Origin: Gluconacetobacter azotocaptans
GTDB taxonomy: Bacteria > Pseudomonadota > Alphaproteobacteria > Acetobacterales > Acetobacteraceae
Length of the DNA stretch: 64,000 nucleotides
Direction of reading: 5' to 3'
NCBI RefSeq assembly: GCF_014174355.1
Contig: NZ_JABEQF010000016.1
Coordinates: 1 to 64,000 of the forward strand
Part shown: piece after piece, positions 19,241-54,744 of the stretch
Layout: every line of letters starts with the position of its first letter
Numbering within the stretch: the stretch's first letter is position 1
Translations under genes and position numbers: made by a program
The notes under the pieces: generated by a model
Told to the model about the DNA's origin: nothing
What the model saw: only the letters and a program-made list of their open reading frames with translations
Databases searched by the model: none

Positions 19241-20188
19241 TCACGTATTCTTCGGATCTACGCTGCGGAAGCCATAGGTCCTGTATTCGGTCGAAACGTG
19301 ATTACCATTCACATGCACGACCATGTACCCCTCGGGGGTTCCCAGATGCGTGCCGTGCCACCAGTTGCCGCTCACCGCGCCGCCGGTAATGAAGGGAATG
19401 CCACCGTGCACCACCCGCTCCAGAACATGCGTATGGCCCTGAAGAACCGCCAGCACATTATGTGAGGCGATGAGTTGCAGGATTTCGCGCGTGTTGACCG
19501 TGCTCAACGCCTGGTGCTTGAAAAGAGAGGGGCTCTCGTCGGCATAGGTGTAGAAGGCCGTCACGATTGGAATATGCGACGATATGATCAGCGGCGTTCC
19601 GGTCGGGATGGCCGAGAGATAGGCCTTGAGCCAGGCAACCTGCTCCGCGCTGATCCTTCCTTCGTAATCCCGGTCGGGGGTGATGGTGACCGAGTCGAGA
19701 ACGATGAAATGCACCCCCTTGTGCACGAAGGCGTAATACGTCTCGCCAAACGCCTTGCGGAAATAGTTCTTGCCGAACTCCGGGTCTCCCGTCGAGCAAC
19801 CGCTGCTGGCATAGACACCGAAGCAATCGTGATTGCCGACCGTGTGATACACCTTCTTGCCAAGAATCTGCTCGGTCATTTCGTACAGATCCAGCAGTTT
19901 TCCTGCTCTTTCATGCGTGACCTCCATGGCGTCGAAGACATGGTCGCCACCTTGGAGGACAAAATCGGCCGCCTCACCCGACGCCTGACGGAAGCACATC
20001 CTGCAGCCCTTCTGCGCATCGAGCTCGGGCTGCAGGTGCGTGTCCGTGATGAAGAGAAACGAAAACTTCTCTCGTGTCCCGGTGTCAGCACCGCCCGCGA
20101 ATGCGGGCGGCGTTCCCAGTAACGACGTTCCGAGCGCAGCCGAAGCCGAAAGCAGCGCTTCGCGCCGGCGAATGATTGTATTTGCCAT
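19241..20188 (-). CDS. exported calcineurin-like metallophosphoesterase
   Basis: A 315-residue protein with a Tat-like signal (RRREALLSASAALG, residues 7-20; cleavage near AFAGG). The metal ligands are in canonical order: Asp49 and His51 (ITDTHL), Asp82 (GGDH), Asn119-His120-Asp121 (VGNHDC), a His in SSHIP, and the terminal GHTHV. The start at 20188 has GGAAGGGG seven bases upstream. It hydrolyses a phosphomono- or diester outside the cytoplasm. It is the last gene after a TonB receptor with STN domain, FecR and ECF sigma. This gene order repeats the system at 3.2-8.5 kb, but with an unrelated phosphatase fold. Confidence 0.88.
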   Translation of the reverse strand: MANTIIRRREALLSASAALGTSLLGTPPAFAGGADTGTREKFSFLFITDTHLQPELDAQKGCRMCFRQASGEAADFVLQGGDHVFDAMEVTHERAGKLLDLYEMTEQILGKKVYHTVGNHDCFGVYASSGCSTGDPEFGKNYFRKAFGETYYAFVHKGVHFIVLDSVTITPDRDYEGRISAEQVAWLKAYLSAIPTGTPLIISSHIPIVTAFYTYADESPSLFKHQALSTVNTREILQLIASHNVLAVLQGHTHVLERVVHGGIPFITGGAVSGNWWHGTHLGTPEGYMVVHVNGNHVSTEYRTYGFRSVDPKNT

Positions 20189-20226
20189 GACAGCCCCTTC
20201 CGGAAACATAAATCAACTTCGGCCGA

Positions 20227-22764
20227 TCAAAAGAAATGCTTGCTGAGCGTGAAGAATACCTGCCGCGGCGGCGCGGCCTGCAGCGTCTGGTAGGTTCCGC
20301 CCGGATCGGAATTGACAAACCCCGTCGTGCCGACACTCGAGATGTAGCGCTTGTCGAAAAGGTTCACGACGTTCACCTGGGCTTCGAGGTTGTTCAACCA
20401 GCCCTGACGGTGGAAACGGTATCCGGCGGCGAGGTTGAAGACGATCCTCCCTTTGATCGGGGAATCATTGAGGTAGGTATAGAAGCGGCGACTCTGATAC
20501 TGCCCGCTGAACTGGCCCCAGACCGTGCCGTCGTCATAGGCCAGCTTTACATTGCCGATGTTGCGCGGCGCCGCCACGACCTGCTTGCCTTTGATCGGCA
20601 CGACGACGGAACTTCCGGGCACGGCGATATTGTCATCATAATGCGCGTCGTTATACGACCAGGCCCCATACAGCGACCAATTGCGGGCGAAGCGCCAGTT
20701 TGCAGCGGTTTCGACACCGCGCGACGTGACGCTGCCGACGTTTTCAAGCACGTTCTGGTTTCCAACGATCACCGAGCTGATCGACGACGCCAGAAGCCTG
20801 TTGGCGAAATTGACATAATATCCGGTCAGCGAGAACTGCAGCGCCGCATTGTGGAAGCGGTAGCCCACTTCTTCCGTGTTGGTCGTCTCGGGCTTCAAAT
20901 TCCCATGCACGTAGTCAAAACCGGCCTGCGTGGTCGAGAAAGGACCGGTCGATGCCGACGCGGTGTAGGCCGCCATGTTCCGCGTGAAATCGGCGAAGAC
21001 TTCGTTGTGACTATCGAACGTATAGAGAGCGCCTGCCTGCGGGAGAAAACCGTTGGACGCCGATATCGACGCGTTGATCGGGTTTTTGCTTGAAATGGTT
21101 TGGGCCGAGCTGTCGGAAACGAGAGACTTGAATCCGGCGTTCAGGCGCAATTTTGGCGTCACGCGCCAGGTATCGCCAATGTGGAACTGATAGACCTTGG
21201 TGCGGAACACATATTGCCACTGCACGTCGAACGGATTGTCGTAGAATCTCTCGAAATCGTCCGGTGCTACGCCCGCCTGAAGCGGGTAGAGCTTCGCGGC
21301 CTGGCTGAACAGGTTATGCTCGAACCAGAAGCCGGCTTCGATGCGGTGATGCCGAAACCTGTAGGCAAGGCTCGTTGTGACGCCCTCGCGATGCATGTTG
21401 TATTCGGTCGTGGACACGGACAGGGGCGAACCCCCGAACTCAGCCGGTGTGGGGTCGTAGGGGTCCGCCCAGGTCCCGGGGCCCCGATCGAGATGTCCGT
21501 ACACCGTGGTCGCGCCGCTGAGATGGGACGAGATGTCGTAATCGATCCGTCCATACCCCAGCACGTCCTGGCGGACGCCACCGCCCCGATAGTATGTATC
21601 GTCCGCGCTCTGATAGGGGGCGGGAATCGGCGTGCCGTTCTGGACGGCTCGGGCAATCTGTTCGGCCAGGGCGTAATTTCTGCTGATATCGTCATGATCA
21701 TAGCCAAATCGGCCAATCAGGGACTTCGACAGGTCGAGATAGTCGTCCTCTCGTCGGTCATCGAGGTCGAGGTAGGTCGTTACCCTCACCGCGCTGCCGA
21801 GCGGCTGGATATATTTGATGTTAAGCTGCTGCTGCTTCTGCTGGCCCCAGCCCTTCCATTTGTCCGCGAACTGGTAATCATAGCTGATGTAGGCCTTGCC
21901 GCCACCGGGCAGGATACCCGTATTCACGCGCGCAAAGGTCCGCCACATGTTCGAACTGCCGACCGAGCCGGCAACATCCACCCCATAGTGATCCGTGGGA
22001 TCGATCGAGGTGAACTGGATCGTCCCCCCCAGATTGCTGGTCGAGGCCGTACCCAGCGCGCCCGCCCCCTGCGCCAGGGTGACGGGGCCGTTGTTCTCGT
22101 TTTCGAGCGCGCGCCCGATGCTCAGGCCGTTGTTGTTGCGATATTGCATATTGCCAAGCGGCACGCCATCGAGCGTGTATCCCAGCTGGTCGGTAATGAA
22201 CCCGCGCACCGTTATCTGCTGCGCCCACTCGTAGGCACCCAGCGGGTCCGACGACTGGAAATTCACGCCCGGCAGTTCGGACAATGTCGCCAGAGGCGAC
22301 GTGCCCGGCACGGATTTGCGCAACTCGGCCCGCGACAGGATCTGAACCTGGCGGGAATGTCCGGCGCCCAGTACGATGACGCTCTCGGAAGCGCCGGCAT
22401 CCGCCTTGCCTTGGCCGCCACCCTTGCGGGAATTGCCGGTCGCATCAGGGGCGGGTGCGCTTTCGATCAGGATGGTTCCATCAGCTTGATGCAGACTTTC
22501 CAACCCGGTACCCAGCAGCAATGTCGAGAGCGCCGCGTCAGGCTCCAGCACCCCTTTGACCGGATGAGCAATTACGCCGTTGGCTGTGGCCGCTTTCAAC
22601 ACGATCCTGACATTGGCCTGGCGACCGTAAGCAAGAATCGCATCCGCAACAGGCTGACGTGGCAGATCGAACGCGGCAGGACGGGCCTGCGCGGCAGAGA
22701 GGAACGGCAGGAACGTGCCGAGGCACGAACAGAGAACGAGGGCCTGGCGATATGTCGGTTTCAC
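20227..22764 (-). CDS. TonB-dependent outer-membrane receptor with STN domain (second system)
   Basis: An 845-residue protein. It has a signal peptide (cleaved near AQARPAA, residues 24-30), an STN domain about 32-100 (VADAILAYGRQANVRIVLKA, then LLLGTGLESLHQADGT), and a Gly/Ala linker. The plug domain (LATLSELPGVNFQSSDP, ITVRGFITDQLGYTLDGVPL, about 150-250) and a barrel ending in the typical terminal phenylalanine (FTLSKHFF) follow. It lies 38 bases upstream of the phosphoesterase gene and 115 bases downstream of fecR. Substrate is unknown; the linked phosphoesterase suggests a phosphorylated ligand. Confidence 0.93.
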   Translation of the reverse strand: MKPTYRQALVLCSCLGTFLPFLSAAQARPAAFDLPRQPVADAILAYGRQANVRIVLKAATANGVIAHPVKGVLEPDAALSTLLLGTGLESLHQADGTILIESAPAPDATGNSRKGGGQGKADAGASESVIVLGAGHSRQVQILSRAELRKSVPGTSPLATLSELPGVNFQSSDPLGAYEWAQQITVRGFITDQLGYTLDGVPLGNMQYRNNNGLSIGRALENENNGPVTLAQGAGALGTASTSNLGGTIQFTSIDPTDHYGVDVAGSVGSSNMWRTFARVNTGILPGGGKAYISYDYQFADKWKGWGQQKQQQLNIKYIQPLGSAVRVTTYLDLDDRREDDYLDLSKSLIGRFGYDHDDISRNYALAEQIARAVQNGTPIPAPYQSADDTYYRGGGVRQDVLGYGRIDYDISSHLSGATTVYGHLDRGPGTWADPYDPTPAEFGGSPLSVSTTEYNMHREGVTTSLAYRFRHHRIEAGFWFEHNLFSQAAKLYPLQAGVAPDDFERFYDNPFDVQWQYVFRTKVYQFHIGDTWRVTPKLRLNAGFKSLVSDSSAQTISSKNPINASISASNGFLPQAGALYTFDSHNEVFADFTRNMAAYTASASTGPFSTTQAGFDYVHGNLKPETTNTEEVGYRFHNAALQFSLTGYYVNFANRLLASSISSVIVGNQNVLENVGSVTSRGVETAANWRFARNWSLYGAWSYNDAHYDDNIAVPGSSVVVPIKGKQVVAAPRNIGNVKLAYDDGTVWGQFSGQYQSRRFYTYLNDSPIKGRIVFNLAAGYRFHRQGWLNNLEAQVNVVNLFDKRYISSVGTTGFVNSDPGGTYQTLQAAPPRQVFFTLSKHFF

Positions 22765-22879: not shown

Positions 22880-23887
22880 TCAAAATATGTCGATTTTATC
22901 CGGTGATTCGACGTGTTCCGCCCCCAGGATCGAGCAGACCGCGCGTGCGAACGCGGACGGATCGCTCAGACGAAACACGCCGACCAGACGCTGCGCTGAC
23001 AACGCTGCGCCATGCACCACAATGCGACGCTGATTGTAGAGATTGAGAATTGCGGCAGCCTCGGCCAATGTTTCCGTGCGCAATTCGAGTGTATCGCGAC
23101 TCCAGGCCGTCCGGCGATACATCTCATCGGCGGACAGCGTCCCCACGCGCGGCGGCATGCCGTCGCCCGCACGCATCCATTGACCCGTTCCGAGGGACCA
23201 TTCTTGCGATCCGGCATCGGCGCGCACCGCGCCGGCCAGGACAAGTATTTCGGTAGCGCGGGCCGATTGCTGAACCACGAAAGACGCGGCAGCGGGAAAA
23301 ATCAGCGTCTGTCCCGCCTTCATCACGGGCGCATTCGACCGACCTGCGGTCCAGTCACCTCGAACCCGCCCGCACAGCAGCCGGGTCTCGACCGGACGCC
23401 CCTGCTGCACGTATCCCATCAGTAAAGTGTCGCGATCAAGGATAAGGCGACCACCTGGCAAGGGCACGGGGGCCGAGGCGCCGACGGTGGTACGCCAGAC
23501 ATGTTCATGCCCCTGCGAGCGCCCTGGCACCACCAGCGCGGCACATGCCGCGGCGGCCGCAAAGCGCATGACGTGCCGCCGCCCCTGGGACTGAGGGGCA
23601 CCAGGCGTAACCGCGGGCGGGGCTGGCGCATGAAGGGCACGGGCGCGATCCAGCGACAGCCAGATCGCCTGCGCCCTGACGAAAGCCCCCCGATGCCGCG
23701 TGTCCGACGCCAGCCACGCGTCAAGGGCCGCCTGCGCTTGGGCAGGCAGCGCCCCACGATCGAGGCGCGCAACCCAGCCGAACGCAATATCGTCCGGATT
23801 ATCCGGGGCGATGGTGCCGCCGGATGGATCGGTGTTGCGCCGTTTCACTCCGGGCCACCTCATTTTGGTCCGGGCCGCCCCGGCCAA
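22880..23887 (-). CDS. FecR-type anti-sigma factor (second system)
   Basis: A 335-residue protein in FecR order: DUF4880-type helices about 33-80 (FGWVARLDRGALPAQAQAAL, RHRGAFVRAQAIWL), a short transmembrane helix about 104-122, a periplasmic FecR beta domain about 128-250, and a C-terminal STN-like part (LAEAAAILNLYNQRRI). The frame overlaps the end of the sigma gene by up to 89 bases. An ATG at 23863 or a GTG at 23845 may be the real start. It should transmit receptor occupancy to the adjacent ECF sigma factor. Confidence 0.88.
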   Translation of the reverse strand: MAGAARTKMRWPGVKRRNTDPSGGTIAPDNPDDIAFGWVARLDRGALPAQAQAALDAWLASDTRHRGAFVRAQAIWLSLDRARALHAPAPPAVTPGAPQSQGRRHVMRFAAAAACAALVVPGRSQGHEHVWRTTVGASAPVPLPGGRLILDRDTLLMGYVQQGRPVETRLLCGRVRGDWTAGRSNAPVMKAGQTLIFPAAASFVVQQSARATEILVLAGAVRADAGSQEWSLGTGQWMRAGDGMPPRVGTLSADEMYRRTAWSRDTLELRTETLAEAAAILNLYNQRRIVVHGAALSAQRLVGVFRLSDPSAFARAVCSILGAEHVESPDKIDIF

Positions 23888-24386
23888 ACGCGCGTCCCAG
23901 CAGTCTCAGCGCACGCGCAAGCTGCTTTTCCACGACGTTTTCTGAAACGCCCAGATGATGCGCGACCTGTTTCTGCGACCATCCTTCGACCCTCCTCAAC
24001 ACCAGGACATCGCGGCATTTTTCCGGCAACTCCGCCATCGTCGCATGGAGCCGCGCCAGTTCCTGCCGGGCACCCACGACCTCATCGACCGGCGGTGCAT
24101 CTTCCATGATGCTTTGGGCGTCGAAATCCGCCAGTGCGACGATCGAAATAATTTTGGCGCGGCGATAGTGCTGCAGGACCAGGTTGCGCGCGACCGTAAA
24201 GAGATAGGCCCGTGGCGACTGGATATGTGCGACATCGGCCTCGATCAGGATGGCGTAGGTGTCCTGGACGATATCATCGACCTCGATGCCGGAAAGCCCA
24301 CGAAGCCACACGCGCAGATGCGGCTCATGCGGGAGAATGTGCTTTGCAATCCATTCCAGCCGGTCCGCCTGCACGACCATGTCCAC
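23799..24386 (-). CDS. FecI-type ECF sigma factor (second system)
   Basis: A 195-residue protein with region 2 (GIEVDDIVQDTYAILIE about 33-50; SPRAYLFTVARNLVLQHYRR about 57-76) and region 4 (CRDVLVLRRVEGWSQKQVAHHLGVSENVVEKQLARAL). It is first in the order sigma - FecR - STN receptor - phosphoesterase. The C-terminal tail past residue 170 is basic and overlaps fecR. Upstream, 24387-24648 carries no recognised gene and should hold its promoter. Confidence 0.92.
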   Translation of the reverse strand: MDMVVQADRLEWIAKHILPHEPHLRVWLRGLSGIEVDDIVQDTYAILIEADVAHIQSPRAYLFTVARNLVLQHYRRAKIISIVALADFDAQSIMEDAPPVDEVVGARQELARLHATMAELPEKCRDVLVLRRVEGWSQKQVAHHLGVSENVVEKQLARALRLLGRAFGRGGPDQNEVARSETAQHRSIRRHHRPG

Positions 24387-24648
24387 GGTACCTCAATGCC
24401 CACGCGATCCTGGCGGCGTGCGTAGCAGCTTCGCCGGTTCAGAAATGTGACATCTTGATGACGAGAGAGGATGCAGCCCCTCTCTCTACGGGTCATGTCC
24501 CGGCGGCGCTCGACAGGGCCAGCCAGCAGCCTCAGGCGCCGGGCCTCGGATTGCACCTCTGTTGTAACGAAGCAGGTTCGTCTACGTCGCCTGCGTCATC
24601 GACGTCCTCGGACGACCGCGTCATGCGCACCGGCTTCCCTTGTCCGCT

Positions 24649-25488
24649 TCAAAGCGTCGCGATCGGCAAATCCGGCAATGAACCCCATTCCGCCCACGAG
24701 CCATCATAAACCGCCCCGCGCGGAAAGCCCGCCACCACGAGTGCAGCCGCGAGAACACAGGCCGTCAGGCCGGACCCGCATGTCGTGATGACCGGCCGCC
24801 CCCCGTCCACGCCTTCCTGCTCCAGCCGGGCTCTGATGTCCGGCACGGGCAGAAAACGGTTTTCGGCATCGAGAAGTTCACCAAAGGGAACATTCCGCGA
24901 CCCCGGAATATGGCCGCTCCGGACGCCGGGGCGTGGCTCCTTCGCCGTTCCCGCAAAACGTGCTTTCGATCGCGCGTCGAGAATAACGGCATCGGACGTG
25001 CCCAGCAGAGACAGCACGTCCCCCAGCCCCTTGAGGCGGGTATAACGCGGGCTGGCGTAATAGGTCTTCGACACGGGTGCGGCCGCCGGGCCGCTTTCCA
25101 CAGGACCGTCGACCCGGCTCCATGCGGGCAGCCCACCATTCAGCACACGGATATTGGCATGACCGAACAAGTCGGCCAGCCACCAGCCCCGGCATGCCGA
25201 CGCGACACCCGTCTGGTCGTAGAAGACCACCTCGGATGACGTCTCGACACCCAACGCCCCGAACAGCCTGCCGAAACGCCCCTGACCGGGTACCATATGC
25301 GTCAGTGTCGTGTCGGGATCGGAGAAGCATTCGATGTCGAACCGGCGCGCCCCCACGATCCGGCGCGCCCGGAAATTTTCATCCGGGTCGAACGATTGCC
25401 CGGGCAATACGGATGTCGCATCCAGAATGACAAGACTCGGGCGCCCGATCCTGGCCACCAGCTCTTCGGCTTCGATCAACAAGGACAT
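24649..25488 (-). CDS. sseA: thiosulfate / 3-mercaptopyruvate sulfurtransferase (tandem rhodanese)
   Basis: A 279-residue protein with two rhodanese domains. The inactive N-terminal one runs about 1-125 (ILDATSVLPG, GARRFDIECFSDPD, GGLPAW). The catalytic C-terminal one runs about 150-279, with Cys237 in CGSGLTA, the loop type linked to 3-mercaptopyruvate preference. AAAGGAAAAG precedes the ATG at 25488, which supports this start over the longer frame from 25539. It transfers sulfane sulfur to cyanide or thiols. It is the promoter-distal member of a leftward gene set with a NIPSNAP protein, MFS carrier and FMN monooxygenase. Confidence 0.9.
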   Translation of the reverse strand: MSLLIEAEELVARIGRPSLVILDATSVLPGQSFDPDENFRARRIVGARRFDIECFSDPDTTLTHMVPGQGRFGRLFGALGVETSSEVVFYDQTGVASACRGWWLADLFGHANIRVLNGGLPAWSRVDGPVESGPAAAPVSKTYYASPRYTRLKGLGDVLSLLGTSDAVILDARSKARFAGTAKEPRPGVRSGHIPGSRNVPFGELLDAENRFLPVPDIRARLEQEGVDGGRPVITTCGSGLTACVLAAALVVAGFPRGAVYDGSWAEWGSLPDLPIATL

Positions 25489-25560
25489 TCGCTTTTCCTT
25501 TCCTCTCTTCCCGAGCAGACACGCCGGAAAATCCCGCACAATCCGCCCTGCGGCGGCCTG

Positions 25561-26175
25561 TCAACGCAAGGGTGAAAAGGCAACCGGAACCACTACTTGC
25601 GACCGCATATCCTCGGTCAGAAAGCCTGCCGAGCCGCGTGGCGGCCAGACACCTGCCGCAACCGCTTCCCTGCGGATGCGTGCACGCTCATCAAGGCTGC
25701 CGTAAGGCCAGATATGTGCAAACCGCGCAGGGCCATCCAGGCTATACATCGCCGTCAACAGGGGGGAGAGCGGTGTCCGACCGGGCAGCGTCTTCCTGAA
25801 ACCCTCGGCGACATCCGACAGATGGCCCGGACGGACATGGTAAGTCCGTATTTCGTAAATTTTTCCATATTCGCCGGGCTGGACACAGGGCAGAAACGGC
25901 AGGCCGCGCCAACTTTGGTACGAAACGTCGCGGACGCCGATCTCCCTGTCGGGAAAGAGACCCGATTCCAGCAAAGCCTGTCTTGCCTCGGCCAGATCGT
26001 CCATCAGCGCGAAGGCGCGCAAGATGATGATCTGGTTCAGCGGCCCGATTTCGCTCACCCAGCAGCCAAGGAAGGTTCCGCCGTCATTCAACGACAGAAG
26101 CAAGGGGTGAAGATCCGCCAGAACCTTCGTCTGTGTCCCCGGCAATACGGTGACCGTAATGGTTTCATACAGCAT
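25561..26175 (-). CDS. NIPSNAP-family protein
   Basis: A 204-residue protein made of two ferredoxin-like alpha-beta repeats. The first begins MLYETITVTVLPGTQTKVLA and the second IYEIRTYHVRPGHLSDVAEG, the latter a clear NIPSNAP signature. No signal peptide or membrane helix is seen. Bacterial NIPSNAP genes are often found with catabolic operons and their biochemical role is undefined. Here it lies between a sulfurtransferase and an MFS carrier, all on the same strand with short gaps, so it probably belongs to the same degradation pathway. Confidence 0.85.
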   Translation of the reverse strand: MLYETITVTVLPGTQTKVLADLHPLLLSLNDGGTFLGCWVSEIGPLNQIIILRAFALMDDLAEARQALLESGLFPDREIGVRDVSYQSWRGLPFLPCVQPGEYGKIYEIRTYHVRPGHLSDVAEGFRKTLPGRTPLSPLLTAMYSLDGPARFAHIWPYGSLDERARIRREAVAAGVWPPRGSAGFLTEDMRSQVVVPVAFSPLR

Positions 26176-26202
26176 CTGATAACCCTGTCGTCCGCTCGCG
26201 GA

Positions 26203-27482
26203 TCATAACGGGACGTTTCCCGATTTCTCTGTGCTGATCACATAGAATATCAGAAACGAAAGAAACATGACGACCGAGTCCATCATCAGGCCGACGGTGT
26301 AATGGCCGGTCTCCTGAACCAGCCCCGAGAATATGCTCGGACCGAAAAAATTTCCCAGATTCCCGATACTGTTGATCAACGCGATCCCCCCCGCGGCGGC
26401 CGGTCCCTGCAGAATCTGCCCCGGAACCACCCACATCAGACCCAGAACGGTAAACAGCGATGCGATGGCTATCGTGATGAATATTCCCTTCATCATCAGC
26501 GGTTGGCAGACAATCGTCAGGATCAGACACAGGAATGCCAGCCCCATCGGAATCAGGATATTCCAGCGACGCTTTCCCGATCGATCCGACCGTGCCGCGC
26601 AAATGATCAACGCCACCGCCCCGACGAAATACGGAATCGGCAGAAGATGCATGACCGCGTATTTATCGAACCCGACCGATCCGATCATTTGCGGAAGCCA
26701 GAAATGAATCGTACCGTTCACAAAAGACAGACAGAAGAAAATACTGGCCAGTTTCCAGACGTACGGATCGCGGGCCACCGCCAGGAACGAACGGGCCGTA
26801 CGATCGGTTTTGACTTGCGCGCGTCGGTGCCGGACCTCGAAGAGGTATTCCTTTTCCTCACGGCTCAGCCATCCTGCCTCGCTGACGGAGTTCGGGAGGC
26901 AGATAAACAGCAGCATCCCCAGAAACGTGGACGGCAGCCCTTCCAGAAGAAAGATCCACTGCCATCCATGAAAACCCCATGTCCCGGATAAATGCAGGAT
27001 CATGCCCGACAGGAGGGACGAAACGGCGCTGGAAACCGGAATCACCACGATCAGATAGCTGATGACCCGGCCGTGCCATTTTTCCGGAAAGCTCTGCATC
27101 AGGAAAAACAGCGTGCCGGGATAGAAGCCGGCCTCCGCAATTCCCAGCAGGAACCGCAGCAGCAGCAGCTCCCGCCCGTTGCCGATGAACGCCATCCCGG
27201 CCGAGATAATGCCCCACGTGACCATCGTCACCGCAAGCCATGTCCTGGCCCCGACTTTCGTCAGGATGTAGTTCCCGGGTATTTCGAAAATGAAATACCC
27301 CAGGAAAAATATTCCGGCGCCAAGACCGTATGTCGTGGCCGGAATCGACAGATCGCGCCGCATGTCCATCGCGGCGAAGCTGATGTTTACGCGATCAATA
27401 AACGCAAAAAAAAACACAGGATCAAAAGAGGGACCAGCCTCAGGATAATCTTTCTATGCAATGCATCTTCGTCGATGGGCAT
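26203..27482 (-). CDS. MFS transporter of the anion:cation symporter (ACS) family, N-terminus out of frame
   Basis: From a GTG at 27417 the frame encodes 404 residues with about 12 transmembrane helices and ACS-family features (FFFAFIDRVNISFA, GYFIFEIPGNYIL, RFLLGIAEAGFYPGTLFFL, GISLI-like GGIALINSIGNLGNFFGP). The natural start is almost surely the ATG at 27480-27482. That start has GAGAGG upstream and encodes MPIDEDALHRKIILRLVPLL, the normal family beginning, but it lies in another frame. The two frames meet at a run of nine Ts (27406-27414 on the + strand as As); ten would restore one continuous protein. This is a frameshift mutation, a slippage site or a sequencing error. It would import an organic anion. 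Confidence 0.82.
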
Positions 27483-27512
27483 ATCGGCCTCTCAAAGCAC
27501 GTCTTGAAACAA

Positions 27513-28817: not shown

Positions 28818-28885
28818 GGACCTGCCTCACGCATGAGAAAAAACGGCGCTATTAAAAATACAATAAATATTGTTATGCCGGATGC

Positions 28886-31084: not shown

Positions 31085-31110
31085 CCGATGGCGCTGGCGT
31101 TGCCCGGCCG

Positions 31111-40939: not shown

Positions 40940-40940
40940 T

Positions 40941-42827: not shown

Positions 42828-42836
42828 TCCGCCGCG

Positions 42837-43622: not shown

Positions 43623-43911
43623 TGGCAACTCCATCCATCGAAAGAGAGAAAGGTATTATCCGTCCCGCGGACAGGCCCGTCGCAATCGCCTGGGGCAAGG
43701 ACCATGGCGGAACGTCTTGTCCCGAAGATGAACGCATACAGCAGGATGTTTCGACCGCGCCACTCTTTCTCCACCACCCTTGCCTGTCGATAAGTTTTAA
43801 AAATAGTCTCCGTCCATTTTTCATAGAGACCCTGCCGGACCCGCCTTGCATGTCGAACCCGGAATGATAGCCTTTCGACATCTGCATCGGATCCAGGAGC
43901 GTCCCTTTGTC

Positions 43912-45357: not shown

Positions 45358-45404
45358 CCTCGGGCACGCCATGCGGTGGCATCGGTCATGAAGGAGCACG
45401 CGGC

Positions 45405-47018: not shown

Positions 47019-47030
47019 CGGGAAGGAACG

Positions 47031-48062
47031 ATGTCCATGATGCAGACATTCCGGCGACGGATCGGCGCACGCGCCCTGGCGTCACTGCCCGCATTGCTGG
47101 GGGTGATCGTCTTTACGTTTATCCTGATGCGGGTTCTCCCCGGCGATCCGGCGGTGTATTTCGCCTCGGGCCCCAATGCCGGCCAGGCCGAAATCGACGG
47201 TCTGCGCCACAAGATGGGTCTGGACCGGCCGATGCCCATTCAGCTGGCGCACTATGTCGCGGGGATCGTGACCGGCGATCTTGGCAATTCCCTGACCACC
47301 GGTCAGCCGGTGATGCACGATATTCGGGCCCGGCTTCCGGCGTCGCTCGAACTGACCCTGACGGCATTGGGCCTGAGCCTGCTGCTCTCGCTGCCGCTGG
47401 GCATTGTCTCGGCATGGTACGCAAACAGCCGGTGGGATCAATGCATCCGCACGCTATGCACAATATGCTTCTGCATTCCGCCTTTCGTATCGGCTATTTT
47501 CCTGATCTATGTCTTCTATTACATCTTCGGCCTCGTGCCGGACCCTACCGGCCGCATCAACATATTCACGCCGCTGCCGCATGACATCACCGGCTTTCTG
47601 CTCGTCGATTTTCTGTTGACGGGCGACCCCGCCGGGTGGCGGGAGGCCGCGGGGCAGCTTCTGCTCCCGGCCGTCACGATGGCGTTGTTCGTGCTGTCTC
47701 CCTTGACGCGCATGACGCGCGCCTCGCTGCTGACGGTCATGAATTCCGACTTCATCCGCACGGCACGCGCCATGGGTCTTCCGACATGGCGCATCGTCAC
47801 CGTCTATGCGTTGCGCAATGCCCTGTCGCCGATCCTGACGACGGTCGGCATCGTCTTTTCGACCATGCTCGGTGCGAACGTTCTGGTCGAGAAGGTTTTC
47901 TCATGGCCCGGCGTCGCGTCCTATGCCCTCGACGCGCTCGTTGCGTCGGATTACGCGCCCGTGCAGGGCTTTATCCTGCTGATGGCGATCCTGTTCATCA
48001 TGGTCAATCTGCTGGTCGATATACTGCAAGGCCTCGTCGATCCACGCGTATCGATGGAGTGA
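47031..48062 (+). CDS. ABC transporter permease, DppB/OppB family
   Basis: A 343-residue inner-membrane protein with about six helices. It has the N-terminal LLGVIVFTFILMRVLPGDPA (about 22-41), the EAA-type loop RTARAMGLPTWRIVTVYALR (about 243-262), and the terminal DYAPVQGFILLMAILFIMVNLLVD. GGAAGGA precedes the ATG. It is 12 bases after the substrate-binding gene and two bases from a GTGA overlap with the next permease. Confidence 0.93.
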   Translation: MSMMQTFRRRIGARALASLPALLGVIVFTFILMRVLPGDPAVYFASGPNAGQAEIDGLRHKMGLDRPMPIQLAHYVAGIVTGDLGNSLTTGQPVMHDIRARLPASLELTLTALGLSLLLSLPLGIVSAWYANSRWDQCIRTLCTICFCIPPFVSAIFLIYVFYYIFGLVPDPTGRINIFTPLPHDITGFLLVDFLLTGDPAGWREAAGQLLLPAVTMALFVLSPLTRMTRASLLTVMNSDFIRTARAMGLPTWRIVTVYALRNALSPILTTVGIVFSTMLGANVLVEKVFSWPGVASYALDALVASDYAPVQGFILLMAILFIMVNLLVDILQGLVDPRVSME

Positions 48063-48070
48063 AAACGACA

Positions 48071-48928
48071 ATGCCCTCCCTGACGGCAAGACGGGTGTCT
48101 CCCGCCGCTCGATTTTTCAGCCATAGCCCGACGACCGGCATCGCCGCGGGCGGCACCCTTATGCTGGCGTTTCTCGCGCTTACCGCCCCATGGATCTCGC
48201 CGTACGATCCGCTGGCCTCGGACGTGCCGCATGCCCTGCAGGCGCCCGGACCGCACCACTGGTTCGGAACGGACGAACTGGGGCGCGACGTTCTCAGCCG
48301 TGTTCTGGCGGCCGGTCGTCTCGACCTGACCATCGCGGTGTCCGCCGTCAGCCTGTCGCTGGCCGCCGGCGTGACCGTGGGTTGCTTCTGCGGTTATCTC
48401 GGCGGCCGGCTGGACCGTCTGGTGGGGCGGGTGGTGGATGTGCTGACGGCGTTTCCCCTGTTTGTCCTGGCGATGGCGCTGGTCGCGGCACTGGGAAATT
48501 CGGTTGAAAACCTGATTTACGCGACCGCGATCATCAATTTTCCCTTCTATATTCGCGTAGCAAGGGCCGAGGTCGCCGCCCGCCGCCACCTGGGCTGGGT
48601 GGAGGCCGCGCATCTGTCCGGCAACGGCACATCGCGCATCGTCATCGCCTTCCTGCTGCCGAACATCCTGCCGACCGTCGCCATCCAGGCATCGCTCAAT
48701 CTGGGATGGGCGATCCTGAACGCGGCGGGCCTGTCCTTTCTTGGCCTGGGCATCACGGTTCCGACCCCCGAATGGGGGGTAATGGTTGCGAACGGGGCGC
48801 ATTTCATGTCGTCGGGCCGGTGGTGGCTGGTGCTTTTCCCGGGCTCGGTCCTGATGCTGACGATCCTGTGTTTCAATCTTCTGGGCGACGGACTGCGCGA
48901 CCTTCTGGATCCAAGGACACGGACATGA
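48071..48928 (+). CDS. ABC transporter permease, DppC/OppC family
   Basis: A 285-residue protein with the family start APWISPYDPLASD, then FGTDELGRDVLSRVLAAGRLDL (about 65-86), GRVVDVLTAFPLFVLAMALVA, and the EAA-like loop HLSGNGTSRIVIAFLLPNIL. Start 48071 has GGAG upstream; a GTG at 48059 overlapping the previous stop is an alternative. With DppB and the fused ATPase it forms a complete importer. Confidence 0.93.
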   Translation: MPSLTARRVSPAARFFSHSPTTGIAAGGTLMLAFLALTAPWISPYDPLASDVPHALQAPGPHHWFGTDELGRDVLSRVLAAGRLDLTIAVSAVSLSLAAGVTVGCFCGYLGGRLDRLVGRVVDVLTAFPLFVLAMALVAALGNSVENLIYATAIINFPFYIRVARAEVAARRHLGWVEAAHLSGNGTSRIVIAFLLPNILPTVAIQASLNLGWAILNAAGLSFLGLGITVPTPEWGVMVANGAHFMSSGRWWLVLFPGSVLMLTILCFNLLGDGLRDLLDPRTRT

Positions 48929-50565
48929 TGCAGGGCATACTGGACATCGATGCCCTCAGCGTCAGGTTCGCGGGCCGGAACAGCCATTTCGATGCACTGC
49001 GCGGCGTATCCCTGTCCCTGGAACAGGGCAGGATTCTTGGCGTCGTCGGCGAAAGCGGGTCGGGAAAATCCGTTACCGGTCTTTCGGTCATGGGCTTGCT
49101 GCCGCAGCAGGCATCCATAACTGGCGGACGTATCCGGTTCAAGGATCAGGATATTACCGCCCGAACGCCGCGCCACCTGCGCGGCGCATCCATCGCCATG
49201 GTCTTCCAGAACCCACGCGCGGCACTGAACCCGACCCGGCGAATCTGCGATCAGCTGTCGGATGTCATTCGGGCCCATGAGTCCCTCGACAGCGGCGCGA
49301 TCAGGCAACGTGTCATACATCTTCTGGAATCGGTCAATTTTCCGGATATTTCCCGTCGAATGGGTGTCTATCCGCACGAACTGTCCGGGGGACTCTGCCA
49401 GCGCGTCATGATCGCCATGGCTATAGCATGCTCGCCATCCGTCATTATCGCCGATGAACCGACGACGGGCCTCGACGTCCTGACCCAGAAAGCGGTGATG
49501 GACCTGCTGTTCCGCCTGTCGCGGGAACGGGCCATGTCGATGATGCTGATCACGCACGATCTCGGTCTGGCGGCACAATACTGCGATTCCATCGCCGTCA
49601 TGCAGAAAGGCACGGTTGTCGAATCCGGCTCGCCAGCCAGGATCTTTTCGAACCCCCAACACGCCTATACGCAGCGGCTGGTCGATGCCTGCATGACCAT
49701 GCACCCGGCCCAACCCCACCCGGCCGGGAAGACGACCTCCCGGAAGCGGCGCCCCCTCCTGGAAGTCTCAAACCTTCGCAAGCGCTACGCCAATGGCCAT
49801 CTCGCGGTCGACGGTGTTTCGTTCGCCATCGCACCGGGCGAGAGCCTCGGCCTGATCGGGGAATCCGGGTCGGGCAAAAGCACCCTGTCCCGCCTTGTCG
49901 GCCGACTGCTGGATCCGGACGACGGCGCCATCAGGTTCGAGGGCCGGTCGATCGGCACGATCGGGGCGCGCGACTTCTTTCGGGCGGAACAGAGACCCCA
50001 TATACAACTCGTGTTTCAGGATGCGGCCGGAAGCCTCAATCCCCGTTTCACCGCATTTGACTCGATCGCCGACCCGGTGCGCCGGCTGGGCCCCGCCAGA
50101 AACCCCGGCGCGCTGCGGCATCACGTCGAGAAATGCGCGGCAGATGTCGGCCTGGCTCCCGCTCTGCTCGACCGTTACCCCCATCAGCTTTCGGGTGGAC
50201 AATGCGCGCGCGTAGGTATCGCACGGGCCATCTCCGTGGATCCGAAACTGCTGATTCTGGACGAACCGACGGCCGCGCTCGACGTCCTGGCCCAATCCGA
50301 AATTCTTGCATTGCTGGAACGGCTGCGACGCGAGAAGGGCATGTCCTATCTTTTCGTCAGTCACGACCTGCACATCGTCAGGATGATCTGCGACAGGATG
50401 GTCATCCTGCAGAACGGCAAGATCGTCGAAACCGGAAACTGCGAGGAGGTTTTCCAGAACCCACGGGCACCCTATACGGCGCAGCTTCTGGCTGCGATCC
50501 CACATTTCCGACCCGCATCACAGGAGGCCGCAGCAGCCACCGGAACCGAGTTCGCCGGATCGTAA
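48925..50565 (+). CDS. fused dual ATP-binding protein of the dipeptide ABC transporter (DppD-DppF type)
   Basis: A 546-residue protein with two complete ABC domains. Domain 1: Walker A GESGSGKS (about 43-50), signature LSGGLCQR (about 153), DEPTTGLDV and THDLGLAA. Domain 2: Walker A GESGSGKS (about 312), signature LSGGQCAR (about 422), DEPTAALDVLAQ and SHDLHIVR. Both have degenerate signature glutamines (C in place of Q). Fusion of the two ATPases resembles YejF/GsiA, where one chain energises the DppBC pair. The ATG overlaps the permease stop (ATGATG, 48925-48930). Confidence 0.93.
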   Translation: MMQGILDIDALSVRFAGRNSHFDALRGVSLSLEQGRILGVVGESGSGKSVTGLSVMGLLPQQASITGGRIRFKDQDITARTPRHLRGASIAMVFQNPRAALNPTRRICDQLSDVIRAHESLDSGAIRQRVIHLLESVNFPDISRRMGVYPHELSGGLCQRVMIAMAIACSPSVIIADEPTTGLDVLTQKAVMDLLFRLSRERAMSMMLITHDLGLAAQYCDSIAVMQKGTVVESGSPARIFSNPQHAYTQRLVDACMTMHPAQPHPAGKTTSRKRRPLLEVSNLRKRYANGHLAVDGVSFAIAPGESLGLIGESGSGKSTLSRLVGRLLDPDDGAIRFEGRSIGTIGARDFFRAEQRPHIQLVFQDAAGSLNPRFTAFDSIADPVRRLGPARNPGALRHHVEKCAADVGLAPALLDRYPHQLSGGQCARVGIARAISVDPKLLILDEPTAALDVLAQSEILALLERLRREKGMSYLFVSHDLHIVRMICDRMVILQNGKIVETGNCEEVFQNPRAPYTAQLLAAIPHFRPASQEAAAATGTEFAGS

Positions 50566-50689
50566 AGCACCCGAGACGACGACAGAGGCAAGCGCCATCG
50601 GCCAGGCATCGGCGGCGCCTCGGACGGACACCCGTTCATATAACCAATCCAAATAGGATCGAGGTTTTCTTTATAAGGGGTAATATTGA

Positions 50690-50709
50690 ATCCAATCAGG
50701 CGATTGGAT
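50690..50709. promoter_or_regulatory. operator-like palindrome upstream of the carbamoylase gene
   Basis: Perfect inverted repeat ATCCAATC (50690-50697) and GATTGGAT (50702-50709) with a 4-base centre, 73 bases before the D-carbamoylase ATG. It fits the size of a dimeric regulator site. Part of it resembles the element in front of the LysR gene (GATTGGATACCAT against AATTGGTTTCACCAT). Confidence 0.5.
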
Positions 50710-50781
50710 ACCATCAGTATTACCATATACCTGTGGCCGGATCATGAATCCTTCCATTCCCAACATCGATGCGAGAGAAAT

Positions 50782-51738
50782 ATGAGTCGCGTTATTCGGA
50801 TCGCTGCGGCCCAGATGGGACCGACCCAAAAGAACGACAGTCGGGAGGCCACCCTCAACCGGATCATCGCACTCCTCGAAAAAGCGTCCGATGCGGGCGC
50901 GAATCTGGTCGTTTTTCCGGAACTGGCGTTCACAACGTTTTTCCCCCGCTGGATACTGGACGGCCAGAGCCTGGACTCTCAGTTCGAGAGCGCGATGCCC
51001 AATCCGAACGTCCAGCCCCTGTTCGACCGGGCGCGTGAACTCAAGATCGGTTTTTATATCGGATACGCCGAAATCACGCCGGACAACCGCCGGTTCAATT
51101 CGTCCATCATGGTCGATACGAAGGGCAATATTGTCGGCAAATACCGGAAGGTTCACCTTCCCGGTTCTGTCGAGCCCCGGCCGAATGCCGTCTATCAGCA
51201 GCTTGAAAAGCGTTACTTCGAATACGGCGACATGGGGTTCCCCGCATTCCGGGGCGGCAAGGATCTTCAGGATGCCATCATGGGCATGCTGATCTGCAAC
51301 GACCGTCGCTGGCCCGAGGGTTGGCGGTGCCTCGCCCTGCAAGGGATGGAACTGCTGTGTGTGGGATATAATTCCGCGGCGTACGATCCCAATGGCGGAG
51401 AGTCGGAATCCGCCGAACTGCGCACCTTCCATGCGCAGCTGGTCGTTCAGGCCAATGCCTACATGAACGCGTGCTGGGCCGTCGCGGTCGCCAAGGCCGG
51501 CAATGAGGATGGATCGGGGCTGATCGGTGGCTCCTGCATCGTGGACCCCAACGGCCGCATCGTCGCCGAAACCAAAACGCTTGCCGATGAAATTGCGGTT
51601 GCAGATTGCGATCTCGATTTGTGCGAGCAGGGAAAATCGAAAATGTTCAACTTCGAATCCCATCGTCGTCCCCACTGGTATTCCCGCATCGTCGAACAGA
51701 CGGGCGTCGGGTGCGTGCCGGAGACGGTTGCGGAATAA
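50782..51738 (+). CDS. N-carbamoyl-D-amino acid amidohydrolase (nitrilase superfamily)
   Basis: A 318-residue enzyme from the ATG at 50782 (GAGAGAAAT before it). The nitrilase triad is at the positions known for Agrobacterium D-carbamoylase: Glu47 in FPELAF, Lys123 in KYRKVHLPG, Cys172 in MLICNDRRWPEGWR. The C-terminal SCIVDPNGRIVAET and FNFESHRRPHWY also match. It hydrolyses N-carbamoyl-D-amino acids, the product of D-hydantoinase, to D-amino acid, ammonia and CO2. Hydantoin racemase and an aspartate/glutamate racemase follow, which supports a hydantoin-type pathway. Confidence 0.92.
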   Translation: MSRVIRIAAAQMGPTQKNDSREATLNRIIALLEKASDAGANLVVFPELAFTTFFPRWILDGQSLDSQFESAMPNPNVQPLFDRARELKIGFYIGYAEITPDNRRFNSSIMVDTKGNIVGKYRKVHLPGSVEPRPNAVYQQLEKRYFEYGDMGFPAFRGGKDLQDAIMGMLICNDRRWPEGWRCLALQGMELLCVGYNSAAYDPNGGESESAELRTFHAQLVVQANAYMNACWAVAVAKAGNEDGSGLIGGSCIVDPNGRIVAETKTLADEIAVADCDLDLCEQGKSKMFNFESHRRPHWYSRIVEQTGVGCVPETVAE

Positions 51739-51839
51739 CCGCAGGCCGAAAGATGGTTCCCACGTTCGTGGAAACGACGCCGCTTCTCAAGCCTTGACCT
51801 GTGATAACCTGGGGCAACACGCAAGATAGGCTGCCTTCC

Positions 51840-52520
51840 ATGTCGGACAAAAAACGAATACTGGTCATCAACCCGAACGCGTCCACGCGCGTGACCCAGG
51901 TCATTGACCGCGAATTGAATGCGATACGGAAGCAGACGTCGTTCACAATCGACGTCTGCGACCATCCCTCGGCTCCCCCGGGAATTGCCCGGCAGCAGGA
52001 CGCCGATATGGTCGCCCCCCTGGTGCAGCAGACCATCCGCAGGGAACGGGCATCGGCCTATGTCGTCGCCTGTTTCAGCGACCCGGGACTGACCGGAGCC
52101 CGGGAGGAGTCGAAAGGTTCTCTCGTTCTTGGCTGCGGTGAAAGCGCCATCTTGCATGCCCTGACGATCGGCGACCAGTTCGGCATCATTTCCCTGTCCG
52201 ATCTGTCGACCCTTCGTCAGCGCCGGATGGTCCGCATGATGGGGCTGACGTCCCGCTATGCCGGCAGCGCCGCCATTTCCGCCACGGCCGAGGAAGCGAC
52301 GTCCCCCCTGCTGATCGAAAAGATGGTGGAAGCCGGTCGCGCGCTGGCATCCGGGGGGGCCAATGTCATCCTCATGGGATGCGCCGGGATGGCCCATTTC
52401 CGGTCGTCTCTGGAAGACAGGCTTGGAATGCCCGTTATCGATCCGACAAGTTCGGCGGTTGCGATGGCGCTCGGCCTGTGCACCCTTCGCGAAAGCAGAC
52501 TGAATGAATCCGACCCATAA
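51840..52520 (+). CDS. hydantoin racemase (aspartate/glutamate/hydantoin racemase family)
   Basis: A 226-residue protein beginning RILVINPNAST, the family hallmark. Two cysteines occur in the expected positions for a two-base racemase: Cys78 (VVACFSDPG) and Cys181 (LMGCAGM). It should epimerise 5-monosubstituted hydantoins or a related compound so that a D-specific hydantoinase/carbamoylase can use both isomers. Its end overlaps the next gene by 17 bases, and the D-carbamoylase is 101 bases upstream. A longer frame from 51801 has no support. Confidence 0.88.
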   Translation: MSDKKRILVINPNASTRVTQVIDRELNAIRKQTSFTIDVCDHPSAPPGIARQQDADMVAPLVQQTIRRERASAYVVACFSDPGLTGAREESKGSLVLGCGESAILHALTIGDQFGIISLSDLSTLRQRRMVRMMGLTSRYAGSAAISATAEEATSPLLIEKMVEAGRALASGGANVILMGCAGMAHFRSSLEDRLGMPVIDPTSSAVAMALGLCTLRESRLNESDP

Positions 52521-53217
52521 GATGATCGGCGTCCTGGGGGGAATGGGGCCCGCGGCAACAGCCGATTTCATGAGACAGGTGATCCTGTCCACCCCGGCCA
52601 GGCGCGATCAGGACCATGTTCCGCTCCTGATCTTTTCCGATCCGACAATACCGGATCGCAGTTCATCGATTATCGATTCGACCGTCCCTTCGCCGCTGCC
52701 CATGTTGCGCGACTACGCCTTGCGCCTGCAGCGCGCCGGGGCGACGGCAATCGTGATCCCCTGCAACACGGCTCATCATTTCTACGACCAGATCGCCGGC
52801 TGCGTCACCATCCCGATTCTTCATATCGTCGATGCGGTGCGCGAAGAACTGGATGAAAACACCGACCTGCGCTCCGGTGGCGTCGCAATCATGGCAACGG
52901 CGGGGACCCTTCGCTCGCGCTTCTACGAACGCAAACTTGCCCAGGCCGGATATGGGTGCATCGTCCCGACCGAGACGGAACAGCATCTGGTGGACCGGAC
53001 CATACAATTGATAAAGGGTGGACAATCCGAAATGGCAAAGCCGTTTGCCATACAGGCGGTTCAGTCTTTTCGTCAGAGAGGCGCCGGGTCCGTCATACTG
53101 GGCTGCACGGAGCTTCCTCTTATCAAGGAGGTGTTTGACGATATCCTGCCTCATGTCGACTCGACGAAAGCGCTGGCCCGGCGCTGCATAAGATATATTT
53201 CGGACGGTACGTCCTGA
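52504..53217 (+). CDS. aspartate/glutamate racemase family protein
   Basis: A 237-residue protein with the family start MIGVLGGMGPAATADF, and two catalytic cysteines at Cys87 (IPCNTAHHFYD) and Cys201 (LGCTELPL). The motifs match aspartate racemase. It is co-translated with hydantoin racemase. In context it may interconvert D- and L-amino acids made from the carbamoyl compound so that they enter central metabolism. Confidence 0.9.
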   Translation: MNPTHKMIGVLGGMGPAATADFMRQVILSTPARRDQDHVPLLIFSDPTIPDRSSSIIDSTVPSPLPMLRDYALRLQRAGATAIVIPCNTAHHFYDQIAGCVTIPILHIVDAVREELDENTDLRSGGVAIMATAGTLRSRFYERKLAQAGYGCIVPTETEQHLVDRTIQLIKGGQSEMAKPFAIQAVQSFRQRGAGSVILGCTELPLIKEVFDDILPHVDSTKALARRCIRYISDGTS

Positions 53218-53298
53218 TTTTTCGAACGACGTGAATTTTCAGAGACTTTATACCAATGACGCCTCGCGAACTCAGAATGACTGGATACATTAAAAGCC

Positions 53299-53805
53299 AT
53301 GGTTGAAAGTGCATTATTCCGGGAAGGCATGTCGTGGCTTGGATCGGCCGTCAATATCATCACAACGGATGGGGCCGCTGGGCGACACGGCTTCACGGCC
53401 TCCGCCGTATGCAGTGTCACGGACACCCCACCGACCTTGCTTGTCTGCATGAACCGGACCGTCAGTTCCCATGAGGCTTTTCTTCAAAACAAAGTCCTGT
53501 GCGTCAATGTCCTCAGGGGCGACCACAAGACGCTTGCCAATGGCTTCGCAAGCCGGCGCTTGTCCATGGATGACCGTTTCGGCCAGGCCGAATGGACCCG
53601 TCTGAAGACGCAGGCGCCTGCCCTGGTCGGCGCGACGGTGAATTTCGACTGCATCATCGATAAAGTCACCAGCGTCGGAACGCATGACGTTTTGTTCTGT
53701 ACCGTTCAGGCCGTCAGGCTGGCAGACAATCGGGAAGGCCTGATCTGGCTCGGCCGCAGCTATCATGAACTGCAGGACCCATCCGCCTTCGGAAGCCAAA
53801 TTTAA
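53299..53805 (+). CDS. flavin reductase (HpaC/RutF/NtaB family)
   Basis: A 168-residue protein with the flavin reductase-like fold: FREGMSWLGSAVNIITTDG (8-26), GFTASAVCSVTDTPPTLLVC, and VNVLRGDHKTLANGFA. It supplies reduced FMN to a partner monooxygenase. The LLM-class monooxygenase at 27.5-28.8 kb is the only such partner in the island. Putting the pair in separate operons is unusual, so another partner elsewhere is possible. Confidence 0.88.
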   Translation: MVESALFREGMSWLGSAVNIITTDGAAGRHGFTASAVCSVTDTPPTLLVCMNRTVSSHEAFLQNKVLCVNVLRGDHKTLANGFASRRLSMDDRFGQAEWTRLKTQAPALVGATVNFDCIIDKVTSVGTHDVLFCTVQAVRLADNREGLIWLGRSYHELQDPSAFGSQI

Positions 53806-54141
53806 AACTCTATAACTCTCTCGTATGATGGGGCCAATCTGCTGATAATCAGGACGGTTGTCAGTGGCGGCAACACTGTCTAGTTTGACCCCTGCCAGCC
53901 CCTGACCAGGCCGGATATATTTACTTACATAGTTCGCTACCATCTATATATGGATAATTATATTATTTTATACTCGCGATCGTTTCGTTCGAAATTATCG
54001 GCCGGGCGGATGATTTCCAAAGACGACCGTTTTCATGGCTACCGATTCTCCGGCCGCGACTTGCAAGCGGCGCCCTTCACCTTGCCCGCGTGGGGCCGGT
54101 CTCCACAGTTAAAGTAAAGATATGAAAAGGAGAAGTTTTCC
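53806..54141. other. AT-rich intergenic region at the right end of the island
   Basis: 336 bases with no gene. The right half is strongly AT-rich (53911-53980). GTTCGCTACCATCTATAT at 53932-53949 resembles the element near 37219 (GTTCACTATCATCATAT). Nothing like the tRNA-Glu 3' end was seen here, so no attachment-site copy is supported. Confidence 0.5.
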
Positions 54142-54744
54142 ATGACTCGCGCCGACAATCGTACTGCGGATCCTTCGATCCTCCGGCTTCTGGTCGACCG
54201 CTGGTCTCCTCGCGCCTTTACCGGGGAAACCATTTCCGAGGAAGAACTGAAGGCGATTCTCGAGGCCGGGCGCTGGGCGCCTTCCCAATATAATTCGCAG
54301 CCCTGGCGGTTCATGTACGCCCGCCGGGATACGCCGCACTGGGGGCACCTGCTGTCCTTGCTGAAACCCGTCAACCAGCGCTGGGCGAAGTCTGCGGCGG
54401 CCCTGGTGTACGTTGCCTCCTGCAAGACCATGATCCCCCGTACCACGCCGGACCCCGTCTTTTCACGCACGCATTCCTATGATGCCGGCGCCGCCGCGAT
54501 GCTGGTTCTGCTTCAGGCAACCTATGCAGGCTGGTCCGCCCATACCATGAGCGGCGTGAGCAACGTGGACGAAACGCATGCCAGTCTCGGTCTGCCGGCG
54601 TCCTATGCCTTTGAAACAGTCATCGCCATCGGAAAGCAGGGATCGCCGGATCTGTTGCCCGAGGACCTGGCCATCCGAGAGGTTCCCTCGACCCGCCGGC
54701 CGCTTGATGAAATCATGTTTGAAGGTCCCTACCCCGCCAGCTGA
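54142..54744 (+). CDS. nitroreductase family protein
   Basis: A 200-residue flavoprotein with the nitroreductase N-terminal RWSPRAFTGETISEEELKAI, then LEAGRWAPSQYNSQPWRF (about 51-68), and the C-terminal FETVIAIGKQG. It probably uses FMN and NAD(P)H to reduce nitro, quinone or aldehyde substrates; RutE of pyrimidine degradation belongs to this family. AAAAGGAGAAG lies a few bases before the ATG. It is the last gene of the accessory region. Confidence 0.9.
   Translation: MTRADNRTADPSILRLLVDRWSPRAFTGETISEEELKAILEAGRWAPSQYNSQPWRFMYARRDTPHWGHLLSLLKPVNQRWAKSAAALVYVASCKTMIPRTTPDPVFSRTHSYDAGAAAMLVLLQATYAGWSAHTMSGVSNVDETHASLGLPASYAFETVIAIGKQGSPDLLPEDLAIREVPSTRRPLDEIMFEGPYPAS

Follow-up and report, generated by a model that had tools for sequence, protein, structure and literature searches.

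A candidate horizontally moving ureide-catabolism island in Gluconacetobacter azotocaptans and other acetic-acid bacteria

Our analysis of a 64,000-nucleotide stretch of the Gluconacetobacter azotocaptans genome (the window) tips towards reading a catabolic gene block within it as a horizontally moving ureide-catabolism island of acetic-acid bacteria, which would act on an acidic substrate and travel with a separate sulfur module. By gene content, we place the island with the hydantoin-utilisation (hyu) kind, in a new form that is mobile and conserved. Its main interest is that D-carbamoylase and hydantoin enzyme sets still have no clear natural role; here, a compact mobile unit in cultivable bacteria couples a D-carbamoylase with its own importers and a dihydroorotase paralogue, making that role directly testable. 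We found no account of the island in a literature search on acetic-acid bacteria with hydantoin and Gluconobacter with D-carbamoylase.

We assigned protein families by Pfam and NCBIfam scans and chose the gene starts ourselves (Table 1). The window comes from a draft genome of 4.13 Mb, and its closest named relative, judged by the D-carbamoylase (98% protein identity), is G. johannae. As the original prediction had claimed, the island region adjoins tRNA-Glu, shows no core genes between 19.2 and 54.7 kb, and has at its far side ABC genes (~57.0-62.7 kb by Pfam) that we take to be urt. GC content is likewise lower than in the flanks, at 0.608 across 18926-24521 and 0.611 across the catabolic block (24522-54924), against 0.682 to the left (1801-18925) and 0.696 to the right (54925-64000). 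Scans and solved relatives agreed with the predicted cyclic amidohydrolase, D-carbamoylase, hydantoin racemase and amino-acid racemase families, and the two ABC importers, LysR regulator, flavin enzymes and enolase-superfamily enzyme were also recovered. The scans also recovered a TonB receptor beyond the one predicted, a DUF4880 protein paired with a sigma factor, rhodanese and NIPSNAP proteins, a TRZ/ATZ amidohydrolase, a class II aldolase and two hydroxyacid dehydrogenases.

Table 1. Features of the tRNA-Glu region and catabolic block, in window coordinates.
Feature	Coordinates	Strand	Remarks
tRNA-Glu (CTC)	18850..18925	+	DNA identity with relatives stops at 3' end
Metallophosphoesterase	19241..20209	-	Pfam PF00149, PF16370; left insertion
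TonB-dependent receptor 1	20227..22764	-	family scan; left insertion
DUF4880 protein, FecR-like	22880..23887	-	PF16220; left insertion
Sigma-70 family factor	23799..24380	-	family scan; left insertion
Whole catabolic block	24522..55026		~95% DNA identity (last piece 91%) to G. johannae C5 64353-34029
Rhodanese / 3-mercaptopyruvate sulfurtransferase-like (MST)	24649..25488	-	putative sulfur module; 214.3 vs NCBIfam cut-off 250
NIPSNAP protein	25561..26175	-	putative sulfur module
MFS transporter	26203..27417	-	family scan
NtaA/DmoA-family FMN monooxygenase (NtaA)	27513..28817	-	closest solved relatives YtnJ/MoxC
D-2-hydroxyacid dehydrogenase-like	28886..29857	-	family scan
LysR regulator	30194..31084	+	60-69% relatives beside D-carbamoylase in other acetic-acid bacteria
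FMN-dependent 2-hydroxyacid dehydrogenase (LldD-like)	31111..32253	-	family scan
Dihydroorotase paralogue, proposed ring-opening enzyme	32288..33619	-	models, motifs, tree
Class II aldolase/adducin family protein	33744..34499	-	family scan
TonB-dependent receptor 2	34602..37067	-	72-73% in other islands
TRZ/ATZ-type amidohydrolase	37761..39290	+	family scan
Family-3 solute-binding protein	39496..40269	+	family scan
ABC permease	40280..40939	+	family scan
ABC ATPase	40941..41681	+	family scan
Mandelate racemase / muconate lactonizing (enolase superfamily) enzyme	41678..42781	+	family scan
Short-chain dehydrogenase (SDR)	42837..43634	-	family scan
NAD(P)/FAD-dependent (FMO-like) oxidoreductase	43912..45357	+	island marker
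Family-5 (oligopeptide type) solute-binding protein	45405..47018	+	family scan
Oligopeptide-type ABC permease	47031..48062	+	family scan
Oligopeptide-type ABC permease	48071..48928	+	family scan
Double ABC ATPase	48925..50565	+	family scan
D-carbamoylase (N-carbamoyl-D-amino acid hydrolase)	50782..51738	+	solved relatives; ICNDRRWPE motif
Hydantoin/allantoin racemase-like (RacA)	51840..52520	+	both Cys motifs
Aspartate/cysteate racemase-like (RacB)	52504..53217	+	both Cys motifs
Flavin reductase (RutF/HpaC-like)	53299..53805	+	RutF model 215.1 vs cut-off 254.75
Nitroreductase-family protein	54142..54744	+	family scan
Molybdopterin-binding enzyme subunit, adjoins block	54913..57156	-	3' end = relic at block end in G. 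johannae

The region from 19.2 to 54.7 kb had been described as one unit with a single TonB receptor, and neither point held. Judged by the DNA shared with G. johannae, which starts at 24522, it is a composite of two insertions (18.9-24.5 kb and 24.5-55.0 kb), and the first of two TonB receptors (20.2-22.8 kb) lies in the left one. The phosphoesterase, this receptor, the DUF4880 protein (presumably FecR, a name we take from its neighbourhood) and the sigma factor sit as a set between tRNA-Glu and the catabolic block. On the G. johannae contig that carries the block (C5), 18926-24521 has no DNA match of at least 300 bases, and none of the four proteins has a match in the G. johannae stretches searched (0/4).

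The catabolic block lies at different sites in the two sister species. DNA common with C5 falls into three pieces (24522-39383, 39437-53986 and 54099-55026), and the last 101 bases of the block are the 3' end of the neighbouring molybdopterin-enzyme gene. In G. azotocaptans, block A (24522-55026) precedes segment B (54925-85507, which carries the urt-type genes). In G. johannae, B comes first (C5 102077-71534), followed by 7.2 kb and then A (64353-34029), and a relic of the molybdopterin-enzyme gene's 3' end lies at A's far end. The window sequence matches this relic at 98/108 and the johannae gene at 97/106, and relic and johannae gene match at 101/121. From this arrangement, with both genomes drafts and the A/B junctions read from draft contigs, we infer that A lay beside the molybdopterin-enzyme gene before the species split and moved in the johannae line. 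The permuted A/B order may reflect an excised circle that re-inserted elsewhere; tandem duplication with loss would explain it equally well. Patchy distribution, atypical GC and different sites in near relatives are all found for this block, as expected of a horizontally acquired island.

Within the genus, the DNA at the end of tRNA-Glu is variable. Coming from recJ, homology with relatives stops at the tRNA 3' end (G. johannae contig C32 and genome G219). Across 13 post-recJ stretches of other Gluconacetobacter, including G. johannae and three short stretches (2.7, 3.3 and 6 kb), we found no island gene at 50% identity or above, and none contains more than 400 bases that also occur in the 15 kb directly following the window tRNA; among the 13, only three pairs have DNA in common. 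The site looks like an integration site because another genome (G218) repeats the tRNA 3' end, with an exact 47-base copy 19.1 kb downstream, as at insertion edges (positions 29-75 and 19193-19268 of its C18 stretch). For the catabolic block itself we rejected tRNA-Glu-targeted integration: a search of the window genome for the last 40 tRNA bases, allowing up to 2 mismatches, gave no further copy, and the proteins scanned include no integrase.

Comparison across strains agreed with the predicted accessory status, the block being patchy across species. Its marker, the FAD oxidoreductase, is present at 70% identity or above in 3/14 Gluconacetobacter genomes, the window genome counted (the remaining 11 have a copy at best 48-49% identical), and at 66-67% in 3/26 Gluconobacter genomes. 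Using tblastn of the window genes against 60 D-carbamoylase loci plus extended stretches, we found 17 block genes together in Gluconobacter Dm-62, kanchanaburiensis and sphaericus and in G. asukensis. These encode the SDR, FAD oxidoreductase, family-5 ABC set (4 genes), D-carbamoylase, RacA, RacB, enolase-superfamily enzyme, family-3 ABC set (3 genes), TRZ/ATZ enzyme, TonB receptor 2, class II aldolase and dihydroorotase. We regard the 17 genes as a travelling unit, as they remain together in a different order in these three Gluconobacter species and in G. asukensis. The LysR and D-hydroxyacid dehydrogenase genes accompany the unit in Dm-62 and asukensis and were not found in the kanchanaburiensis island; the sphaericus island runs off its contig before either could show. 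In Dm-62, a carbamoylase/allantoate-amidohydrolase-like M20 hydrolase and a PuuE-type protein (345.3 against a cut-off of 424.6) lie beside the island (L142:14053-16254).

A second cluster form occurs in Gluconobacter albidus, potus, vitians and cadivus, Acetobacter nitrogenifigens and others. It comprises a D-amino-acid transaminase, which belongs to this form and not to the window island, together with dihydroorotase, LysR, D-carbamoylase, an ABC set, a polysaccharide-deacetylase-fold protein, another TRZ/ATZ enzyme and RacA. D-carbamoylase is found at E<=1e-130 in 8/26 Gluconobacter genomes, three of which have the island form. The Komagataeibacter melaceti (L036) and Nguyenibacter (L043, 11 kb) loci carry D-carbamoylase, LysR and transaminase, with no dihydroorotase in the stretches analysed. 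At the former, a gene without a match to dihydroorotase (L036:7477-8799) fills the dihydroorotase slot between the transaminase and LysR/D-carbamoylase.

We split the 60 loci by record titles into 15 acetic-acid-bacterial loci and 45 others, and chose 16 control stretches with a comparable mean length (ten post-recJ in relatives, six beside islands). RacA accompanies D-carbamoylase beyond chance, at 13/15 acetic-acid-bacterial loci and 0/16 controls; any of three TRZ/ATZ queries matched at 11 and the transaminase at 9 of the 15, and neither matched in a control. The 45 other loci gave 21 matches for RacA (0 at 50% identity), 7 for TRZ/ATZ and 0 for the transaminase. Background matches in the controls were one each for LysR, the ATPase, the family-5 binding protein and TonB receptor 1, and two for the SDR. 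Dihydroorotase was found at 8/15 acetic-acid-bacterial loci with flanks of at most 10 kb, which miss island copies lying farther off; in the window, 17 kb separate it from the D-carbamoylase. Ring-opener family members occur at 28/45 other loci, and since 0/45 reach 50% identity, the dihydroorotase/D-carbamoylase link is, within this sample, special to acetic-acid bacteria.

These linkage data bear on whether the block is instead a collage assembled at an insertion hotspot, with a hyu-like core (dihydroorotase, LysR, D-carbamoylase and RacA) and uptake and oxidation genes as chance neighbours. The separable left insertion and NtaA, and the turnover of DNA after tRNA-Glu in the 13 relatives, are consistent with a collage. 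We nevertheless consider it unlikely, as the 17 genes stay linked in differing orders across two genera, unlike chance neighbours.

Our data identify the proposed ring opener as a dihydroorotase paralogue. The cyclic amidohydrolase passes the dihydroorotase model (631.5 bits, cut-off 482) and fails those for hydantoinase (209.5 vs 393.25) and allantoinase (253.5 vs 357.85); it also lies far below two ErtD models (216.5 vs 650 and 178.6 vs 600). The window genome has a second dihydroorotase copy, 61% identical, and all four island genomes searched have such a copy (58-61%). A tree of 24 rows places 13 cluster copies in one group (92/98) and 7 core copies in another (87/99); neither fork reaches the tool's star, and four rows, three of them long, lie outside. 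The paralogue keeps HVHLRDPG, MPNT and SDHAPH, as do the core copies; we take these HLR, MPNT and DHAPH motifs to be the metal ligands and the Arg/Asn/His ligands of the dihydroorotate carboxylate. Because the carboxylate-binding residues are kept, we favour an acidic ureide as substrate, most likely one resembling dihydroorotate or hydantoin-5-acetate.

The carbon-nitrogen hydrolase is clearly a D-carbamoylase by its relatives: all 11 distinct solved sequences matched at E<=1e-20 are D-carbamoylases (342.7 bits to 8i99, 313.8 bits to 1erz). Its motifs FPELAF, YRKVHLPG and ICNDRRWPE, kept with small changes in relatives, presumably supply the Glu-Lys-Cys residues and ICNDRRW motif of that family. 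Of RacA's five solved relatives, three are hydantoin racemases; the others are an allantoin racemase and OpaE, a fungal epimerase to which the likeness is weaker. The best matches are 3qvj, 3qvk and 2eq5, and the protein appears to be a hydantoin-type racemase. For RacB, aspartate racemases lead among solved relatives, and it passes the cysteate racemase model CuyB (238.3, cut-off 190). The original idea of a ureide converted to a D-amino acid is supported in outline by the D-carbamoylase and the hydantoin-type racemase, with a dihydroorotase paralogue, not a hydantoinase, as the likely ring opener.

We propose that TonB receptor 2 and the oligopeptide-type and amino-acid-type ABC importers take up a ureide-bearing compound, which the TRZ/ATZ amidohydrolase, FAD oxidoreductase and enolase-superfamily enzyme would prepare. 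The dihydroorotase paralogue would then open the cyclic ureide to an N-carbamoyl amino acid, RacA would supply the D-form, and the D-carbamoylase, which we assume accepts an acidic substrate, would release a D-amino acid. RacB may convert this to the L-amino acid, and the dehydrogenases and aldolase would handle the remaining carbon. Both the order of these steps and the direction of the racemases are conjectural.

The island resembles hyu clusters, which according to excerpts of one report combine D-carbamoylase and hydantoin racemase (PMC3546935), in pairing these two enzymes in one cluster. It differs in opening the ring with a dihydroorotase paralogue where hyu has a D-hydantoinase, and it adds a dedicated TonB receptor, two ABC importers, the TRZ/ATZ and enolase-superfamily enzymes and an aspartate-type racemase. 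The ergothioneine / hydantoin-5-propionate pathway (ErtD, ErtE) opens an acidic hydantoin to an N-carbamoyl acidic amino acid, as proposed here, but the island's carbamoylase is D-type and its ring opener scores far from ErtD. The Rut pathway uses the flavin reductase RutF and a luciferase-family monooxygenase, and the island has a counterpart of each; however, its RutF-like protein is below cut-off, and its monooxygenase, which some islands lack, scores above the cut-off of the NtaA/DmoA model.

That monooxygenase probably belongs with MST, NIPSNAP, MFS, RutF and the nitroreductase, at the block ends, to a separate organosulfur module, as its relatives and neighbours suggest. The closest solved relatives of NtaA are YtnJ, which we take to be CmoJ, and MoxC (359 bits), followed by nitrilotriacetate monooxygenases and DszA. 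It is present in G. johannae and G. asukensis, in the latter beside MFS, NIPSNAP, a TauD-family dioxygenase and an NMT1-type importer; the kanchanaburiensis match is 45% identical and on a different contig. The Gluconobacter Dm-62 and sphaericus genomes carry the ureide set with no NtaA match at E<=1e-60, and we rejected on this ground the earlier view of one pathway using all 30 genes. S-alkylcysteine salvage (CmoO/CmoJ) resembles the island through the likeness of NtaA to YtnJ, the sole point of comparison, and differs in that the island's sulfur genes flank a ureide set.

The block could instead encode a single sulfur pathway whose substrate is a ureide or thioether, either derived from cysteine or of cysteate type; RacB would then be a cysteate racemase, MST would transfer sulfur and NtaA would cleave a C-S bond. 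The CuyB score, the MST-like protein and the YtnJ/MoxC likeness fit this pathway, as does the family-3 binding protein, whose best match is a cystine-type model (155.2, below the cut-off of 312). Excerpts of one study describe CmoJ cleaving S-alkylcysteine sulfoxides (PMC10863075). We think a sulfur pathway improbable: RacB and the family-3 importer are kept in the Dm-62 and sphaericus islands, whose genomes lack an NtaA match, and MST has no match in the asukensis or Gluconobacter stretches searched.

There is also a slim chance that the genes form a kit for a complex natural product in which a ureide is joined to a sugar acid or peptide, such as a spiro-hydantoin or peptidyl pyrimidine nucleoside. 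Uptake would run through the TonB and oligopeptide importers, the sugar-acid part would be broken down by dehydrogenases, the aldolase and the enolase-superfamily enzyme, and the ring by the recruited dihydroorotase and D-carbamoylase, which if true would give the hyu-type set a natural role. A purine/allantoin route, with RacA as allantoin racemase and the amidohydrolase as allantoinase, could draw on the allantoin racemase among RacA's matches and the PuuE-type and M20 proteins beside the Dm-62 island, but is very unlikely given the failed allantoinase and passed dihydroorotase models, a carbamoyl hydrolase of D-carbamoylase type, and no PuuE or M20 relative in the window (E<=1e-15, half coverage).

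Returning to the favoured ureide island, substrate names for the TRZ/ATZ enzyme (182.7 vs an NCBIfam cut-off of 522), RutF and MST are weak because their scores fall below NCBIfam cut-offs. The TRZ/ATZ motif HIHTLQT (window 38475-38495) has a Gln, unchanged in aligned island orthologues, at a position where deaminases of the superfamily usually have Glu; the enzyme may not be a simple deaminase. Its plasmid relatives are 31-34% identical in the best 25 of 44. For the FAD oxidoreductase, we found no solved relatives at E<=1e-15, a structure prediction from a 7-row alignment reached a mean pLDDT of 53.7, and among 333 plasmid records none has at least 60% identity; four plasmid regions with relatives show varied gene contexts. 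All 14 Gluconacetobacter genomes have a copy at 48-50%. In the window genome this paralogue (49%; contig C4 372523-382134) has a dihydropyrimidinase and a xanthine dehydrogenase small subunit within ~10 kb, which may hint that the family is tied to purine/pyrimidine chemistry.
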